64,000 nucleotides of DNA from Blastococcus tunisiensis (GTDB lineage: Bacteria; Actinomycetota; Actinomycetes; Mycobacteriales; Geodermatophilaceae), in the NCBI RefSeq assembly GCF_900112815.1, contig NZ_FOND01000006.1:1-64000 (forward strand). Reading direction: 5' to 3'. Positions 15,006-22,259 of this stretch are shown piece by piece. The translations under genes and the position numbers were made by a program. The notes below the pieces were generated by a model. The model saw nothing but the letters and a program-made list of their open reading frames with translations, ran no database searches and was not told where the DNA came from. The first letter of the stretch is position 1. The number at the start of each line of letters is the position of its first letter.

Positions 15006-16598
15006 TCACCGCGAGCGCTCCGACGTGGCCCCGCGCAGCCGCCGGAGAACACGCCGCCACCGATTTCCCGCGCCAGGAGGCTGCGAGTCCCCGGCTTGAC
15101 GGGCGGCCGGCTCGTCCGCCCCGAGCCAGCGCGCGAGGCGACCGGCCCGGTGGACCGCTTGGAGACGGCGCTCTACCTCGCGCCGCGCCCGGGTGGGGAC
15201 GATCAGCAGGAGTTGGTCACCGACGCGAAGGGTCGTGTCCCGGTCGGGCACCACCGTGTGCCCGTCCCGCACGACGAGCGACACCACCGCTTTCGGAGGC
15301 AGGCGCAGCTCCCACATCGCCACCCCGTGCAGCTTCGAGCCCGGCGGCACGGTGAACTCCACCAGGTCGGCGTCGATGGACTCCAGCGGAGCGGACTCGA
15401 TCGCGACGTCGGTGGCGTCGCCGTCCGCCCCGGTCCGCAGCCACCGGGCCAGCGGCGGCAGCGTGGGCGCCTGCAGGAGCGTGAAGACGACCACCAGCAC
15501 GAAGACCACGTCGAAGATCTGGCCGGCCGCCGGCATGCCGGCGCTCAACGGGATGGTCGTGAGGACGATCGGCACCGCGCCGCGCAGGCCGGCCCAGGAC
15601 ATGAAGGCCTGCTCCCGCCAGGGGATGCGGAACGGCGTGACGCTGAGGATCACCGAGATGGGACGGGCGAGCAGCAACAGCGCGCTCCCGACGATGAGCG
15701 CGGGCACGAGGGCGTCCGGCAGCCGCGCGGGGCTGGCCAGCAGCCCGAGCATCACGAACAGCGCGATCTGGGCGAGCCAGGCCAGGCCCTCGGCGAACCC
15801 GAGGGTGGCGTTGCGGTGCGGCAGGCGCGCGTTGCCCAGCCACAGGCCGGCCACGTAGATGGCCATGAATGAGGACGCGCCGGCCACACCGGCGGCGGCG
15901 AAGGCGAACAGGGCGATCGCCATGGTGGCGATGGGGTACAGCCCCACCGACGGCAGCGCGCTGCGGCGCTGCACGACCTCGCCGACCCGGGCGACCAGGA
16001 GACCGATGGCCGCACCGGCGGCCAGCTGGTAGAGGACCTGGCCGAAAGCCAGCAGCGGGTCGGCCTGCTCCCATCCGTCGGAGACCACCAGGGTGACGAG
16101 GATGATCACGAGCGGGTCGTTGAAGCCGGACTCCGCCTCCAGGGTCGCGCCCAGCCGTCGCCGTAGCGGCAGCCGGCGCAGCACGGAGAACACCGCCGCA
16201 GCGTCGGTGGAAGACACCACTGCCCCGAGTAGGACGGCGGTGCGCAGGTCGATCGGCAGGATCAGGTAGCTCACTGCGGCGGTGACCGCCACGCTGACCG
16301 CCACGCCCAGGGTCGCCAGCACCAGGGACGGTCCCAGGACCGGGCGGATGACCGACCAGCGGGTGGTCAGGCCACCTTCGGCCAGGATGATCCCGAGCAG
16401 CACCAGTCCGACGACCTGCGTGAGCTGTGCGTCCTCGAACTCGATGCCCAGCCCGGCCTCGCCGACGAGGAGCCCCATACCGAGGTAGATGAGCAGCGTC
16501 GGCAACCCCGCTCGGGTCGACAGCCGGACGGCCGCGACAGCGACGAGCAGCAATCCGGTCACCGCGAGCACCACGAGGTTCAGGTCGGCGACCGACAC
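15006..16598 (-). CDS. NhaP-type cation/proton antiporter with RCK_C domain
   Basis: 530 residues from a GTG after AGGAGGGAGGGG. Around 12 membrane helices of a CPA1 antiporter: ILAEGGLTTRWSVIRPVLGP, the core SSTDAAAVFSVLRRLPL, ESGFNDPLVIILVTLVV with the conserved acidic pair region, and WAGLRGAVPIVLTTIPL. A C-terminal TrkA_C (RCK_C) domain follows at about 405-480 (EFTVPPGSKLHGVAMWELRLPP, LRVGDQLLLIVP). This layout is that of potassium/proton antiporters (CvrA/NhaP2). It swaps K+ or Na+ for H+ at the membrane under ligand control. It is divergent from the arrest-peptide-like gene and secDF. Confidence 0.88.
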   Translation of the reverse strand: MSVADLNLVVLAVTGLLLVAVAAVRLSTRAGLPTLLIYLGMGLLVGEAGLGIEFEDAQLTQVVGLVLLGIILAEGGLTTRWSVIRPVLGPSLVLATLGVAVSVAVTAAVSYLILPIDLRTAVLLGAVVSSTDAAAVFSVLRRLPLRRRLGATLEAESGFNDPLVIILVTLVVSDGWEQADPLLAFGQVLYQLAAGAAIGLLVARVGEVVQRRSALPSVGLYPIATMAIALFAFAAAGVAGASSFMAIYVAGLWLGNARLPHRNATLGFAEGLAWLAQIALFVMLGLLASPARLPDALVPALIVGSALLLLARPISVILSVTPFRIPWREQAFMSWAGLRGAVPIVLTTIPLSAGMPAAGQIFDVVFVLVVVFTLLQAPTLPPLARWLRTGADGDATDVAIESAPLESIDADLVEFTVPPGSKLHGVAMWELRLPPKAVVSLVVRDGHTVVPDRDTTLRVGDQLLLIVPTRARREVERRLQAVHRAGRLARWLGADEPAARQAGDSQPPGAGNRWRRVLRRLRGATSERSR

Positions 16599-16888
16599 GA
16601 TCCCCTCCCTCCTGGTGCTCTTCGGCGCCTCCTCGGCCAGGCCACCGGCCGCGTCTCTGCCGTCGACCGGCGGTGCTACGTGTTGGAGCCGTGGCCGTGC
16701 GGCCGGCCGTCCTGGTGCACGCCCAACGGCCTGCGCGGAACGGTCCGGACGCCGGTTCGCCACGGTGGGCGCGAACCATCTCAGCCAGTGGGGGCGGTGC
16801 GGCCCGATCCTTTCACGACAGCCTGCGGGGGCCGGGTAGCGTGCGCGCAGCGGCCCGTCACCACGGTGCGTACCGGGAGGAGGAGCGC

Positions 16889-17347
16889 ATGCCCGCACGA
16901 ACTCCCCGCCGCGACTTCTTGCGGATTCTGGTGCTCAGCTGCTTGCTGCTGCTCCTCGCCGGGTTCGCCTCCCAGCATCACGGCGCCGCGGCGCCCGGTA
17001 CGGCGCGCTCAAACCCGACGGTCGCCGGCGACCCGATCGCGGTGGTCCGGACGACGGCGATCCATCCCGCCTCGTACGGGGCCCGGATGGCCGGACGTAC
17101 GACGTCCGTCGCCGGTCACCGCCTCGCGCCCCTCGGGGCCGGCGGGCTGGTCGTGTCCGCCGAACGGGTGGCGTCTCTCGCCGACCGCACTCCGTGCGGT
17201 GGTCCCGGCGACCATCCGGTGGTCGTGCCGGCCGTCAGCATGCTCTCGAGCTTCCCGTCCGGCCCGGCTCGCTCCGGGTGGGTGGTCGCGAGTGCCGTCA
17301 GCGCCGCGCAGGACACGGTCCCCGCCCGGGGTCCGCCGGCAGTCTGA
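16889..17347 (+). CDS. Secreted protein with C-terminal RGPP, putative SecDF-regulating arrest peptide
   Basis: 152 residues; the ATG follows GGGAGGAGGAGCGC. A basic N-terminus (MPARTPRRDFLR) and a hydrophobic helix (about 12-27) form a Sec signal or anchor. The rest is weakly structured and ends VPARGPPAV-stop, with Arg147-Gly148-Pro149-Pro150 two residues from the C-terminus. It lies 219 nt upstream of secDF in the same direction. Actinobacterial ApdA and proteobacterial ApdP are secreted leader proteins encoded upstream of secDF that stall ribosomes at RAPP near their C-terminus until export pulls them free. Here Gly replaces Ala. The assignment rests on position, signal sequence and motif; stalling is not shown. 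Confidence 0.6.
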   Translation: MPARTPRRDFLRILVLSCLLLLLAGFASQHHGAAAPGTARSNPTVAGDPIAVVRTTAIHPASYGARMAGRTTSVAGHRLAPLGAGGLVVSAERVASLADRTPCGGPGDHPVVVPAVSMLSSFPSGPARSGWVVASAVSAAQDTVPARGPPAV

Positions 17348-17566
17348 TCGGGAGCAGGCGCGTCCGGTTCCGACCCGACCGGCCCTGCTCGAGGACCGGC
17401 CTGCACGCCAGCCGGATCACCATCCCACCTGGCGCCCGTGCCCGGCATGCCCCTCCCCCGCGACGGCTGCCCGCTCCCGGCGCCGGTGGTCGTACCCCTC
17501 CGTCATCACCCCGCGCGCCGCCTCGTCGGCACGTGCCCGCGGGGCCCTGCACTTTGGAGACGTTGC

Positions 17567-19910
17567 GTGTCCTCCCCTTCCCGGCGCAGCGAGAAGTCAT
17601 CGGCGCCCCACGGCCGCCCCCTGTTGGTGCGCGCCCTGCTCTCGCTGGCGGTGCTGGTGGCGGCCACCGCGGCCGTGCTGACCTCGGCACCCACCCTGGG
17701 TCTGGATCTGCGCGGCGGCACCCAGATCGTGCTGGAGGCGCAGGATTCCCCGACGGTGACCGCCGACACGGAGGCCACCGACCGGGCGCTGGAGGTTCTC
17801 CGCCGCCGGGTGGACGCGCTCGGGGTGGCCGAGCCCACCCTCGTCCGGGCCGGCGAACGACGCATCGTGGTCGAGCTTCCGGGGCTGACCGAGCCGCGGG
17901 AGGCCGTGGAGGTGATCGGTCGAACCGCCCAGCTGACCTTCCACCCGGTCCTGGGCATCGCCGCCGCCGAGACGACACCGGAGGCCGACGGCACCGACCC
18001 GGCCGAGTCGGTACAGCCGGACGAGACCGGCACTCCGCTACGGCTGGGCCCCGCGGCGCTGACCGGTGAGGGCATCGACGAGGCCACGGCCGGGTTCGAC
18101 GCGCAGGCCGCCGGCGGCTGGTTCGTCACCGTGGACTTCACAGGCCCAGGCCAGACCGCGTGGGAGGAGCTGACCGGGCAGGCCGCATGCGCGGCTCCCG
18201 GGGACCCCACGCGTCGGATCGCCATCGTCCTGGACGAGGAAGTCATCTCCTCCCCCCAGGTCAACCCAGGAGTCCCCTGCGGAGTGGGCATCACCGGGGG
18301 GCACCACCCAGATCACCGGGGACTTCGCCCAGGAGGAGGCGGAGGACCTCGCTGCACTCATCCAGGGCGGTGCGCTGCCCGTGCCCGTCGAGGTGATCGA
18401 GCAGCGCACCGTCGGGCCCACGCTGGGCGCGGCGGCGATCGAAGCCAGCGTGCAGGCGGTGCTCATCGGCATCGCCGCGACCGCGGTGTTCATCGTGGCG
18501 GTCTACCGGCTCATGGGTTTGCTGGCTGTGGTCGCCCTCCTCTGCTACGCGCTGATCGCCTACGCAGCCCTGCTCACGCTCGGCGCCACGATCACCCTGC
18601 CCGGCCTGGCCGGGTTCGTGCTCGCCGTCGGGATGGCCGTCGACGCCAACGTGCTGGTCTACGAGCGCGCTCGGGAAGAGTTCGCCGGCCGCGGACGGTC
18701 GCTGCGCAGTGCGGTCACCGCCGGATTCCGCCGCGCGTTGTCGGCGATCGCCGACTCCAACGTCACGACCCTGCTGGCCGCCGGACTGCTCTTCCTCCTG
18801 GCCTCCGGGCCCGTCCGTGGCTTCGGGGTCACCCTCACCGTCGGCGTGCTCGCCTCGATGTTCTCGGCCCTGGTGATCACCCGGTCGCTGGCCGAGCTCG
18901 CGGCGACCCGACCGGCGCTCGCCCGTCGGCCACACCTCACCGGCCTGCACACCCTCGGCCGGGTGCGGACCTGGCTGGCCGGCCGGAACTGGCGACTCTA
19001 CGGACGGCCCCGCCGCTGGCTGGCCGCCTCGCTCCTCGTCGTCCTGCTGGCCGCGTCGGGAATCGCCGTACGCGGCCTGCAACTCGGCGTGGAGTTCACC
19101 GGCGGGCGCAGCATCCAGTACGCGACCACCACTGCCCTGGACCCGGAGACGGCCCGTCAGGCTGTGAGCACCGCCGGCTTCCCGAACGCGGTGGTGCAGG
19201 AAGCCGACGACGGTGACATCCGGATCCGCACCGGGCCGATCGACGACACCGCGCAGGAGGCGATCCGAGATGCCCTCGCGGCGGAGGCCGGAGGTGCCGA
19301 GGTGGTCAGCGATGAACTGATCGGCCCGACCCTCGGCGAGGAGTTGCGGCGCAACGCCCTCATCGCGCTCGGGGTGGCGCTCCTGGCGCAGCTGACCTAC
19401 CTGGCGGTGCGGTTCCGCTGGACCTACAGCGCCGGAGCCGTGGGTGCGCTGATCGGCAACGTCGCCGTCGTCGTCGGCATGTTCGCCTGGACCGGACGGA
19501 CCGCCGACGGCCTTTTCCTCGCCGCTGTCCTCACCGTCATCGGGTACTCGGTCAACGACTCCGTGGTCGTCTTCGACCGGATCCGCGAGACCCGGGTCGC
19601 TCGACGGGGACGGGCCTTCGCGGACGTCGCCGGCGACGCGGTCCTGCAGACCCTGCCCCGCACGGTGAACACCGGGGCGTCCACGCTGCTCGTCCTCCTC
19701 GCGCTGCTGGTCCTCGGCGGGGATTCGTTGGCCGACTTCGCCTTCGCGCTGGTCCTGGGCATCCTCGCCGGAACGTTCTCCACCGCTTCGGTCGCCGTCC
19801 CCCTCACCGTCGCGCTGGACCGGCGGTGGCCGCCACCCCCGCCCGGACCACCGGCCTCCGCCGCACGCCGGGGCACAGGGGTCCGTCGGGAGGACGGCGC
19901 GGTGGTTTAG
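17567..19910 (+). pseudogene. secDF: Fused SecDF translocase subunit with +1 frameshift
   Basis: The GTG at 17567 (TTTGGAGA 8 nt before) opens SecD: a first helix, then TLGLDLRGGTQIVLEAQ, RRRVDALGVAEPTLVR and LDEEVISSPQVN. At 18296-18301 the coding sequence has six Gs where family sequence needs five (ITGG, then TTQITGDFAQEEAEDLAALI in the next frame). Past that point 18302-19910 reads SecD helices (AVGMAVDANVLVYERAREEF) and, fused to them, SecF (GVEFTGGRSIQYAT, VIGYSVNDSVVVFDRIRETR, RTVNTGASTLLVLLAL). Corrected length would be 780 residues. SecDF uses proton or sodium flow to finish preprotein export. Fusion of D and F is unusual for actinobacteria, so this may be a second, specialised copy. 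Sequencing error versus real loss cannot be told here. Confidence 0.85.
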
Positions 19911-19998: not shown

Positions 19999-20496
19999 AT
20001 GCCAGATGTACGGGTCCAGGCCGAACGACTGCCGGGGATCGGCTGGCGCTACACCCTGCCGGCAGACGTGGGACGCCAGGTCGTGGTCGTGGCCGAGGAC
20101 TCCGGCTCCGCCCACCTGGTCCTCGTCGACCCCCGGCTGGACGAGCCCCTGACCACGGTCCGGCTCTCAGCCGAGCACGCGGCCGTGCTCGCCGCCTTGC
20201 TGACCGGGGCACAGTTCACGCTGGAGGTGGTCCAGGACGCACGGACGGCGGCGCACGCCGACCCGCGGGAGGTCGTCGTCGAGACGGTGCGCATCCCGGA
20301 CGGATCACCGGCCGTGGGCCTCGCCCCGCAGCAGGTCACCGGTCGGCTCGGGTCCGACGCCTGCCTCCTCGGGGTGATCTGCGACGCGACCCCCGAACTG
20401 ATCGAGACCGACGAACGGCGTCGCGTGCAGGTCGGCGACAAGCTCGTCCTCGCCGCCCGCCGCAGTGAACTGGAGCAGCTGCGCAACACCGTGTGA
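19999..20496 (+). CDS. khtT: KhtT-like regulatory subunit of a K+/H+ antiporter
   Basis: 165 residues; ATG after GAAGGAGCGATGCC. The N-terminal half begins MPDVRVQAERLPGIGWRYTL as in KhtT/YhaT proteins. The C-terminal half is a TrkA_C (RCK_C) domain (VETVRIPDGSPAVGLAPQQV, ERRRVQVGDKLVLAARRSEL). KhtT binds nucleotide and gates the membrane subunit. It is followed after 98 nt by the antiporter gene, so the pair forms one system. Confidence 0.85.
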   Translation: MPDVRVQAERLPGIGWRYTLPADVGRQVVVVAEDSGSAHLVLVDPRLDEPLTTVRLSAEHAAVLAALLTGAQFTLEVVQDARTAAHADPREVVVETVRIPDGSPAVGLAPQQVTGRLGSDACLLGVICDATPELIETDERRRVQVGDKLVLAARRSELEQLRNTV

Positions 20497-20594: not shown

Positions 20595-22259
20595 GTGTTC
20601 GAGCACGAGTTCCACACCATCGCCGCCCTGCTGGCGGTCGCCGCCGTGATCGCCGCGGCGGCGGTCAAGCTCCGCCAGCCGCTGATCATCAGCTTCATCG
20701 CCGTGGGCATCGTGGTCGGCCCCATCGGACTGGGCTGGGTCGAGGAGAACAACCAGGTAGCCCTCCTGGCCGAGCTGGGCATCGCGCTGCTGCTTTTCCT
20801 GGTCGGGCTGAAGCTCGACCCCCACCTGATCCGCACCACCGGGCCGGTGGCCGTCGCCACCGGACTCGGCCAGGTCGTCTTCACCTCGGTCGTGGGCTTC
20901 GGGCTCGGGCTGCTGCTGGGCTTGTCCCCGGTCGAGGCCGTCTACGTCGCGGTCGCGCTGACCTTCTCCAGCACGATCATCATCGTCAAGCTGTTGTCGG
21001 ACAAGCGGGAGATCGACCAGCTGCACGGCCGCATCGCGGTCGGCTTCCTCATCGTCCAGGACATCGTCGTCGTGCTCGTGATGATCGTGCTCACCGCGTT
21101 CGGCACCGCGGGCGAGGGCGATGACCTGGCCGTGGACATGGCGCTGGTCCTCGGCAAGGGCGTGCTGTTCGTCGGCGGCGTCTTCGTGGCGATGCGGTTC
21201 CTGCTGCGGCCGGCGCTGGGCTGGATGTCCCGGTCGAAGGAACTCCTCGTGCTCTTCGCACTGGCCTGGGGCATCGCGCTGGCCGGCCTCGGGGACTGGC
21301 TGGGCTTCAGCATCGAGGTCGGCGCGTTCCTCGGCGGCATCTCCCTTGCTGCCACCCCCTACCGGGAGGCGATCGGGTCCCGGCTGATCAGCCTCCGGGA
21401 CTTCCTGCTGCTGTTCTTCTTCATCGACCTGGGTTCCCGGCTGGACTTCGCCGACGCCGCCAGCCAGCTGGTGTCTGCCGCGGTGCTGTCGGCCTTCGTG
21501 CTGATCGGCAATCCGCTGATCGTGCTGGTGATCATGGGGTTGATGGGCTACCGGAAGCGGACGAGCTTCCTCGCTGGCCTGACCGTCGCGCAGATCAGCG
21601 AGTTCTCGCTGGTGCTCGCCGCACTCGGGCTGGGCCTGGGACACATCACCGCCGACACCGTCGGCCTGATCACCGCGGTCGGGATCGTCACCATCGCCCT
21701 GTCGACCTACATGATCCTGTACTCCGCGCCGCTCTACGCCCGGCTGGCACCACTGCTGTCGGTTTTCGAGCGCAGCCGACCTACCCACGGCGAGGAGGAA
21801 GGCGCCGCGGACCCCTCCGTAGACATGGTCGTCATCGGCGCCGGCCGCTACGGCGGCCGGCTCGTGCGGCAGCTGCTCACCCAGGAGGCCCGCGTGCTCG
21901 TGATCGACAGTGACCCGCAGGCGCTGGAGAACATCAGCCAGGACGGCGCCGAGACCCTGTACGGCGACGCCGAGGAGCCCGAGCTGATCGACGCCCTGCC
22001 CTTGCGGGGAGCGTCCTGGGTCGTCAGCACCGTGCCCGACCGATCGGTCAACCTGGCACTGCTGCACGGGCTCGACCAGACCGACTTCGCCGGCAAGGTC
22101 GCCCTCACCGCCCACAACGACCACGACGCGGAGCGGCTCGAGGCCGCGGGTGTCGACCTCGTCCTGCGGCCCTTCCACGCCGCGGCCGACAGCGGAGCCG
22201 CGCTCCTCCTCGATGACGCGCGGCCGCGGACCGGTCGCGACGGTCCGGCTCTCGGGTGA
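20595..22259 (+). CDS. khtU: CPA2 K+/H+ antiporter with TrkA-N domain
   Basis: 554 residues; GTG 7 nt after GGAGGA. About 12 helices of a KefB/KhtU-type antiporter: LRQPLIISFIAVGIVVGPIG, LGIALLLFLVGLKLDPHLI, FSSTIIIVKLLSDKREIDQL, GRIAVGFLIVQDIVVVLVMI and EVGAFLGGISLAATPYREAI. After about residue 410 a Rossmann TrkA-N domain (MVVIGAGRYGGRLVRQLLTQ, GDAEEPELIDALPLRGASWV) binds NAD(H)/nucleotide. It exports K+ in exchange for H+. Together with the preceding KhtT-like gene and the NhaP antiporter it makes this block rich in ion-balance functions. Confidence 0.88.
   Translation: MFEHEFHTIAALLAVAAVIAAAAVKLRQPLIISFIAVGIVVGPIGLGWVEENNQVALLAELGIALLLFLVGLKLDPHLIRTTGPVAVATGLGQVVFTSVVGFGLGLLLGLSPVEAVYVAVALTFSSTIIIVKLLSDKREIDQLHGRIAVGFLIVQDIVVVLVMIVLTAFGTAGEGDDLAVDMALVLGKGVLFVGGVFVAMRFLLRPALGWMSRSKELLVLFALAWGIALAGLGDWLGFSIEVGAFLGGISLAATPYREAIGSRLISLRDFLLLFFFIDLGSRLDFADAASQLVSAAVLSAFVLIGNPLIVLVIMGLMGYRKRTSFLAGLTVAQISEFSLVLAALGLGLGHITADTVGLITAVGIVTIALSTYMILYSAPLYARLAPLLSVFERSRPTHGEEEGAADPSVDMVVIGAGRYGGRLVRQLLTQEARVLVIDSDPQALENISQDGAETLYGDAEEPELIDALPLRGASWVVSTVPDRSVNLALLHGLDQTDFAGKVALTAHNDHDAERLEAAGVDLVLRPFHAAADSGAALLLDDARPRTGRDGPALG

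Follow-up and report, generated by a model that had tools for sequence, protein, structure and literature searches.

A short reading frame directly upstream of a second copy of secDF raises two questions: whether it encodes an ApdA, one of the actinobacterial arrest peptides placed before secDF2 (defined in PMC7897499), and by what route arrest of its translation would control the gene behind it. The frame lies in a stretch of 64,000 nucleotides of Blastococcus tunisiensis (NZ_FOND01000006.1, positions 1 to 64,000, forward strand), which is called the window throughout. To the first question we answer with considerable confidence that the frame encodes an ApdA, a Sec monitoring substrate. An earlier note on the same DNA had arrived at an ApdA-type sensor from the letters alone, and its interpretation as a whole is partly supported by the results given here.

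An ApdA-like reading frame before a second secDF

The upstream open reading frame (uORF; 16889..17347, + strand) comprises 152 codons from an ATG start with the strong Shine-Dalgarno (SD) sequence GGGAGGAGGAG, and its product ends in TVPARGPPAV before the stop. Its sequence, together with the orthologues in genomes G052 and G032, divides it into a hydrophobic signal (approximately residues 12–26), a variable middle and an ARGPPAV end. Judged by hydropathy only, the signal, which reaches a 15-residue Kyte–Doolittle mean of 2.87 from residue 13, is followed by a hydrophilic domain, as is typical of an ApdA, and the RGPP motif (R147–P150) is encoded by CGG GGT CCG CCG at 17327..17338 (+), its proline codons CCG CCG being the common ones. 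A spacer of 219 nt (17348..17566, +) leads to secDF2 (17567..19910, +), a second, fused SecDF with the Pfam domains SecD_1st, SecDF_P1_head and SecD_SecF_C. It starts at a GTG, 7 nt behind the SD sequence GGAG (17556..17559, +), and both GTG and GGAG recur in six family orthologues. This secDF2 is a paralogue; the canonical secD–secF pair of the same genome is found on another contig. The earlier note is borne out in the length of the protein (152 residues), in its N-terminal signal and VPARGPPAV end, and in the 219 nt that separate it from secDF.

Position, signal, motif and comparison together lend good support to an ApdA-type identity. The uORF falls within the 80–200 codons taken for an ApdA, and it lies on the same strand as, and directly upstream of, the second secDF. 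Its C-terminal motif is RAPP-like, with a proline at the A-site position, and is conserved in relatives in the sense that RGPP in the window corresponds to RAPP in the two nearest ApdAs, with the whole uORF absent from four family loci. The stall site is given as the third motif residue in the available text of PMC10987492, and by analogy P149 (17333–17335) would occupy the P-site and P150 the A-site at the presumed stall. About 123 residues separate the signal from P149, a distance within the range of published Sec monitors (medians 131.5 and 133 in the available text of PMC10987492), which counts for the ApdA reading. Profile searches of Pfam and NCBIfam with the uORF product returned no family match. 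The signal, encoded within 16889–16960, starts with RRDFLR, which resembles a twin-arginine motif; the two orthologous ApdAs lack RRDFLR.

On the model of published relatives, the signal would bring the nascent chain to SecYEG, slow export would let the ribosome stall at P149 with Pro-tRNA in the A-site, and pulling by a working Sec machinery would release it, the stalling being meant to raise the second SecDF. In many relatives the coupling is predicted to resemble that of SecM: the SD sequence of secDF2 would be masked by the arrest codons and the tail, and freed by the stalled ribosome. Stalling, stall site and release are thus proposed for the window ApdA from published work on its relatives, and one point against the proposal is that, among natural proteins of E. 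coli and B. subtilis, most of those carrying RAPP-like motifs cause no stall (PMC10987492, available text).

One extra G in the G6 run at 18296–18301, relative to all six family orthologues, puts the target gene out of frame in the assembly, a defect that the earlier note had missed. Identity of the window SecDF2 to these orthologues amounts to 72–82% in the N part and 78–88% in the C part, and before and behind the frame break alike, third codon positions show the most differences; because of this predominance, the extra G may represent a recent inactivation or a sequencing error.

RxPP reading frames across relatives

Among 112 genomes of the family, seven carry a close fused secDF2, and these form one supported clade on the SecDF2 tree. 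An R[A/G]PP uORF precedes the gene in three of the seven, namely the window (RGPP), G052 (RAPP) and G032 (RAPP); an R[A/G/S]PP uORF is absent from the other four (G048, G049, G006, G016). Two of the family secDF2 loci devoid of an RxPP uORF (L036, L037, L038, L039) carry an upstream antiporter or antiporter fragments instead.

The three family ApdAs are only 30–42% identical to one another, and all end in RxPPA plus one residue. The signal, the RxPPA end and a short middle block like ER(I/V)GSLDDR are kept among them, and the middle otherwise changes fast. The earlier note had asked whether orthologues upstream of secDF share only the signal and the RxPP end; the two ends are indeed kept (together with the short middle block) where the rest has diverged, but four of the seven family secDF2 loci have no such uORF, which goes part of the way towards an outcome that the note had named as refuting its reading. 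The spacers of the three, 219 nt in the window and 124 and 147 nt in the others, are the longest of the order set.

In the order, a fused secDF2 was found in 48 of 397 genomes, four of them in the family. Upstream DNA was taken from 40 of the 44 non-family genomes (G197, G253, G268 and G377 were left out), and two of the loci (L045, L064) are cut by contig ends, leaving 38 testable ones. All 38 have an R[A/G/S]PP uORF whose stop lies 24–95 nt before secDF2, so that order and family together yield 41 uORFs (29 RAPP, 6 RGPP, 6 RSPP). A held-out set of 40 loci from other orders, drawn from 95 matching among 394 genomes of the class, gave such a uORF in 31 (18 RAPP, 12 RGPP, 1 RSPP); none was within reach in the remaining nine (L212–L214, L216, L224, L230, L233, L235, L239). 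RGPP thereby accounts for 18 of the 72 uORFs over both sets. The motif stands at least 12 residues before the stop in L062, L065, L071, L208, L209, L221 and L225 and may there not be the real arrest site, and the hydrophobic signal is weak or absent in L066, L078 and L221 under the chosen start. In L056, L059, L060 and L063, a second RxPP (RAPP or RGPP) occurs 12 residues before the last one, possibly as a double arrest site. With such recurrence, chance is no serious explanation for an RxPP uORF before secDF2.

The earlier note had regarded the glycine in RGPP as a possible extension of the sequence rule for this class. It was anticipated in print: RGPP uORFs upstream of secDF were described in 2024, with RGPP listed among the natural motifs (PMC10987492, available text), and in 2025 RGPP was reported generally to give the most robust arrest in reporters (PMC12992588, available text). 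The RGPP finding by itself consequently matters little.

Arrest codons and the secDF2 Shine-Dalgarno sequence

How ApdA stalling raises secDF2 was left open in 2021, when RNA folding programs revealed no hairpins masking the downstream SD sequence for ApcA, ApdA or ApdP (PMC7897499, available text). A stem-loop of this kind has been described for an RGPP uORF of Alteromonas, in which arrest-dependent induction of secDF2 via SD masking was shown (PMC10987492, available text). We measured, by partition function, the pairing of the SD sequence with the mRNA from −40 to +16 nt around the start of the P-site codon, with the footprint removed or not; this stretch includes 16–26 nt behind the ribosome footprint, which alone spans −14 to +16. 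The null consisted of synonymous-codon shuffles of the last codons, 60 per locus.

Over the 41 folded leaders of order and family, the SD sequence pairs with the covered stretch with a mean probability of 0.59, and its mean freedom rises from 0.13 to 0.29 when that stretch is removed (gain above 0.2 in 15 of 41, loss above 0.2 in one). Pairing in the 38 non-family order loci averages 0.62 against 0.22 in synonymous shuffles (Wilcoxon 1.4e-6, the loci being related); 28 exceed the null mean, and in 23 at most 5% of the 60 shuffles reach the observed value. The held-out set, with 30 loci since one of the 31 uORFs has no recognised SD sequence, gave 0.53 against 0.31 (p 0.003), with 18 loci above the null mean and 7 at the 5% level. 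When genus means are taken, 20 of 33 genera lie above the null (p 0.0008), or 17 of 31 (p 0.006) without seven doubtful motif picks. With the footprint alone, for which version no null was computed, pairing is 0.61 (vs 0.62) in the order loci and 0.44 (vs 0.53) in the held-out loci, exceeding 0.5 in 24/38 and 14/30, respectively.

CCT makes up 28 of 82 proline codons in the motif and 36 of 538 elsewhere in the same uORFs; the corresponding counts in the held-out set are 12 of 62 and, among proline codons of uORFs and secDF2 starts, 32 of 851. Some helices between SD sequence and arrest codons are perfect over 9–13 bp in a duplex search. In an alignment of nine related loci (A1), the helix has two positions at which both partners have changed, and pairing holds in 90.7% of cells, versus 29–58% when the strands are slid; of five covariation measures, two fail to beat shuffles. 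RNAalifold places the lock helix unprompted in two alignments; its consensus fold of another nine-locus alignment (A4) does not contain it, though single folds favour the lock in most of these loci. L050 and L052, where SD freedom rises from 0.13–0.14 to 0.64–0.67 on removal of the covered stretch, match the ApdA of Amycolatopsis japonica (length 128, motif 120–123; PMC7897499, available text) in both length and motif position, from which we infer that they belong to this genus.

A universal lock was considered and rejected, because pairing stays at or below the null mean in 10 of the 38 non-family loci of the order and in 12 of the 30 held-out ones. Mean lock is lower in RGPP loci (~0.20–0.21, n=6) than in RAPP loci (0.57, n=29) of the order and family set, as it is in the held-out set (0.31, n=12, vs 0.66, n=17), a difference which may reflect ancestry. 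For many ApdA operons, judged from these folding models, a lock built by the arrest codons is a good hypothesis, concrete enough to be tested by synonymous mutations, and no mention of it was found in the available texts on ApdA-type arrest peptides and reviews.

The window departs from this pattern. Its SD pairing with the stretch under the stalled ribosome is 0.00, as is that of L034 and L035, the two nearest ApdAs; its best duplex between SD sequence and arrest codons is broken, and its 219-nt spacer folds no better than shuffles. A SecM-type unmasking of the SD sequence (footprint −14 to +16) was not seen in the window; in print, it is not a defining feature of ApdA. The stall-dependent hairpin over the secDF start that the earlier note proposed did not turn up in the window, whether sought by partition function (with the footprint present or removed), by shuffling synonymous codons, by searching for duplexes or by plain folding, but it is predicted in many other ApdA loci. 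Given that the three family ApdAs lack the lock and have longer spacers, their coupling either differs or is being lost as the circuit of this family fades.

Fading is possible but, on our judgement, unlikely: the peptide may still stall while its link to secDF2 is being lost, as suggested by the four of seven family secDF2 loci that lack apdA, by the three family ApdAs that combine the longest spacers of the order set with no SD lock, and by the frame-shifted window gene. Against this, the signal and RxPP end have been kept while the rest diverged, the third codon position accounts for most SecDF2 differences both before and behind the break, and the frameshift itself may be a sequencing error. 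A working circuit with some other coupling for long spacers, for example mRNA protection, transcription–translation uncoupling or a long-range structure missed by the folding model, is likewise a doubtful proposition. It would fit spacers of 124–219 nt and the generally weaker SD lock of RGPP loci, yet a scan of 16600–17600 found no terminator-like or sigma-70-like site (other promoter types lay outside it), the spacer holds no stable structure beyond shuffles, and nothing positive points to any such step. That the uORF encodes an ordinary secreted small protein with a coincidental RGPP end is highly improbable, for although Arg, Gly and Pro codons are common in this GC-rich genome, the peptide has no family match and stalling of the window sequence is a prediction, the motif recurs at the same place in 72 loci and RGPP is described as the tetrapeptide that many phyla exclude most strongly (PMC12992588, available text).

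The ApdA reading is the one we prefer for the window, with the four of seven family and nine of 40 other-order secDF2 loci that lack an RxPP uORF, the missing SD lock and the broken frame counted against it. Control of secDF2 in this strain is uncertain, given the missing lock and the broken frame of the assembly.

Antiporter neighbours and known systems

Divergent from apdA lies a K+/H+ antiporter gene (15006..16601, − strand; PF00999 and TrkA_C, NCBIfam NF003716 above cut-off), which shares a cluster with the antiporters that come immediately after secDF2 in family f10. Downstream of secDF2, a 165-aa reading frame (19999..20496, +) with no match in Pfam or NCBIfam is followed by a second antiporter-type gene (20595..22259, +; PF00999 and TrkA_N pass the Pfam cut-offs, whereas matches to Kef/CPA2 NCBIfam models stay below theirs). 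In all, 5.04 Mb yielded five PF00999 genes, these two included.

The association recurs in the order: of 40 loci with flanks, 23 have a CPA-type cation/H+ antiporter immediately behind secDF2 and in the same orientation (L082–L088, L090, L092, L095, L181–L188, L190–L192, L194, L199). The downstream antiporters belong to three subfamilies with a mean mutual identity of 21–23%, and on the SecDF2 tree (87 rows) the starred branches force at least five changes for the KefB-type label, two for the NhaP type and one for the short type, where the window and two loci whose antiporter gene lies upstream are counted under these labels too. As a universal feature, the linkage was rejected, 17 of the 40 order loci having no antiporter directly downstream. 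In none of the 40 other-order loci does an antiporter follow secDF2 immediately in the same orientation (a single locus offers only 276 nt of downstream sequence), with four elsewhere nearby, and none was found within up to 6 kb in 80 named loci, mostly of other phyla, a control that is weak for distant antiporters as the profile was built from actinobacterial sequences. Canonical secDF had an antiporter in 0 of 23 loci, with flanks of only ~1.5 kb. The literature searched gave nothing on a link between antiporter, apdA and secDF2, and the words "antiporter" and "exchanger" are absent from the main text of PMC7897499 and PMC10987492.

VemP controls a second SecDF (PMC7897499, PMC10987492, available texts), and in Vibrio SecDF1 is sodium-dependent and SecDF2 proton-dependent (PMC7897499, available text). 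By this analogy, the recurrent neighbour suggests that an apdA–secDF2–antiporter operon would answer a failing ion gradient, which would tie actinobacterial Sec monitoring to the Na+/H+ logic of VemP. We put forward, as a tentative picture about which doubt slightly outweighs confidence, that in many actinobacterial apdA–secDF2 operons the arrest codons and tail have been selected as an anti-SD sequence, the staller itself being the lock; that in several lineages the operon includes a cation/H+ antiporter as well and so forms an ion-motive-force stress unit; and that the window represents a branch keeping staller and antiporters, its lock lost or rewired.

The window uORF thus adds an ApdA to a known group, of which 398 actinobacterial members, Mycobacteriales included, have been counted (PMC10987492, available text), and its RGPP ending is already in print. 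With ApdA it shares the phylum-level group, the place before a second SecDF, a signal of the cleavable type and a short tail after a C-terminal RxPP; it differs in having RGPP for RAPP, a 219-nt spacer, a frame-shifted secDF2 and a stalling that is so far predicted. The RGPP uORFs of the RQH family (e.g., uDF_RQH_Enterobacterales; PMC10987492, available text) resemble it in their RGPP end upstream of secDF, but they come from another phylum, and the window showed no counterpart of the SD-masking stem-loop of the Alteromonas peptide. SecM and VemP have arrest sequences that are unrelated or only partly similar and an SD-unmasking step not seen in the window, whereas the logic of Sec monitoring is common to all, and VemP, like the window candidate, is tied to a second SecDF.
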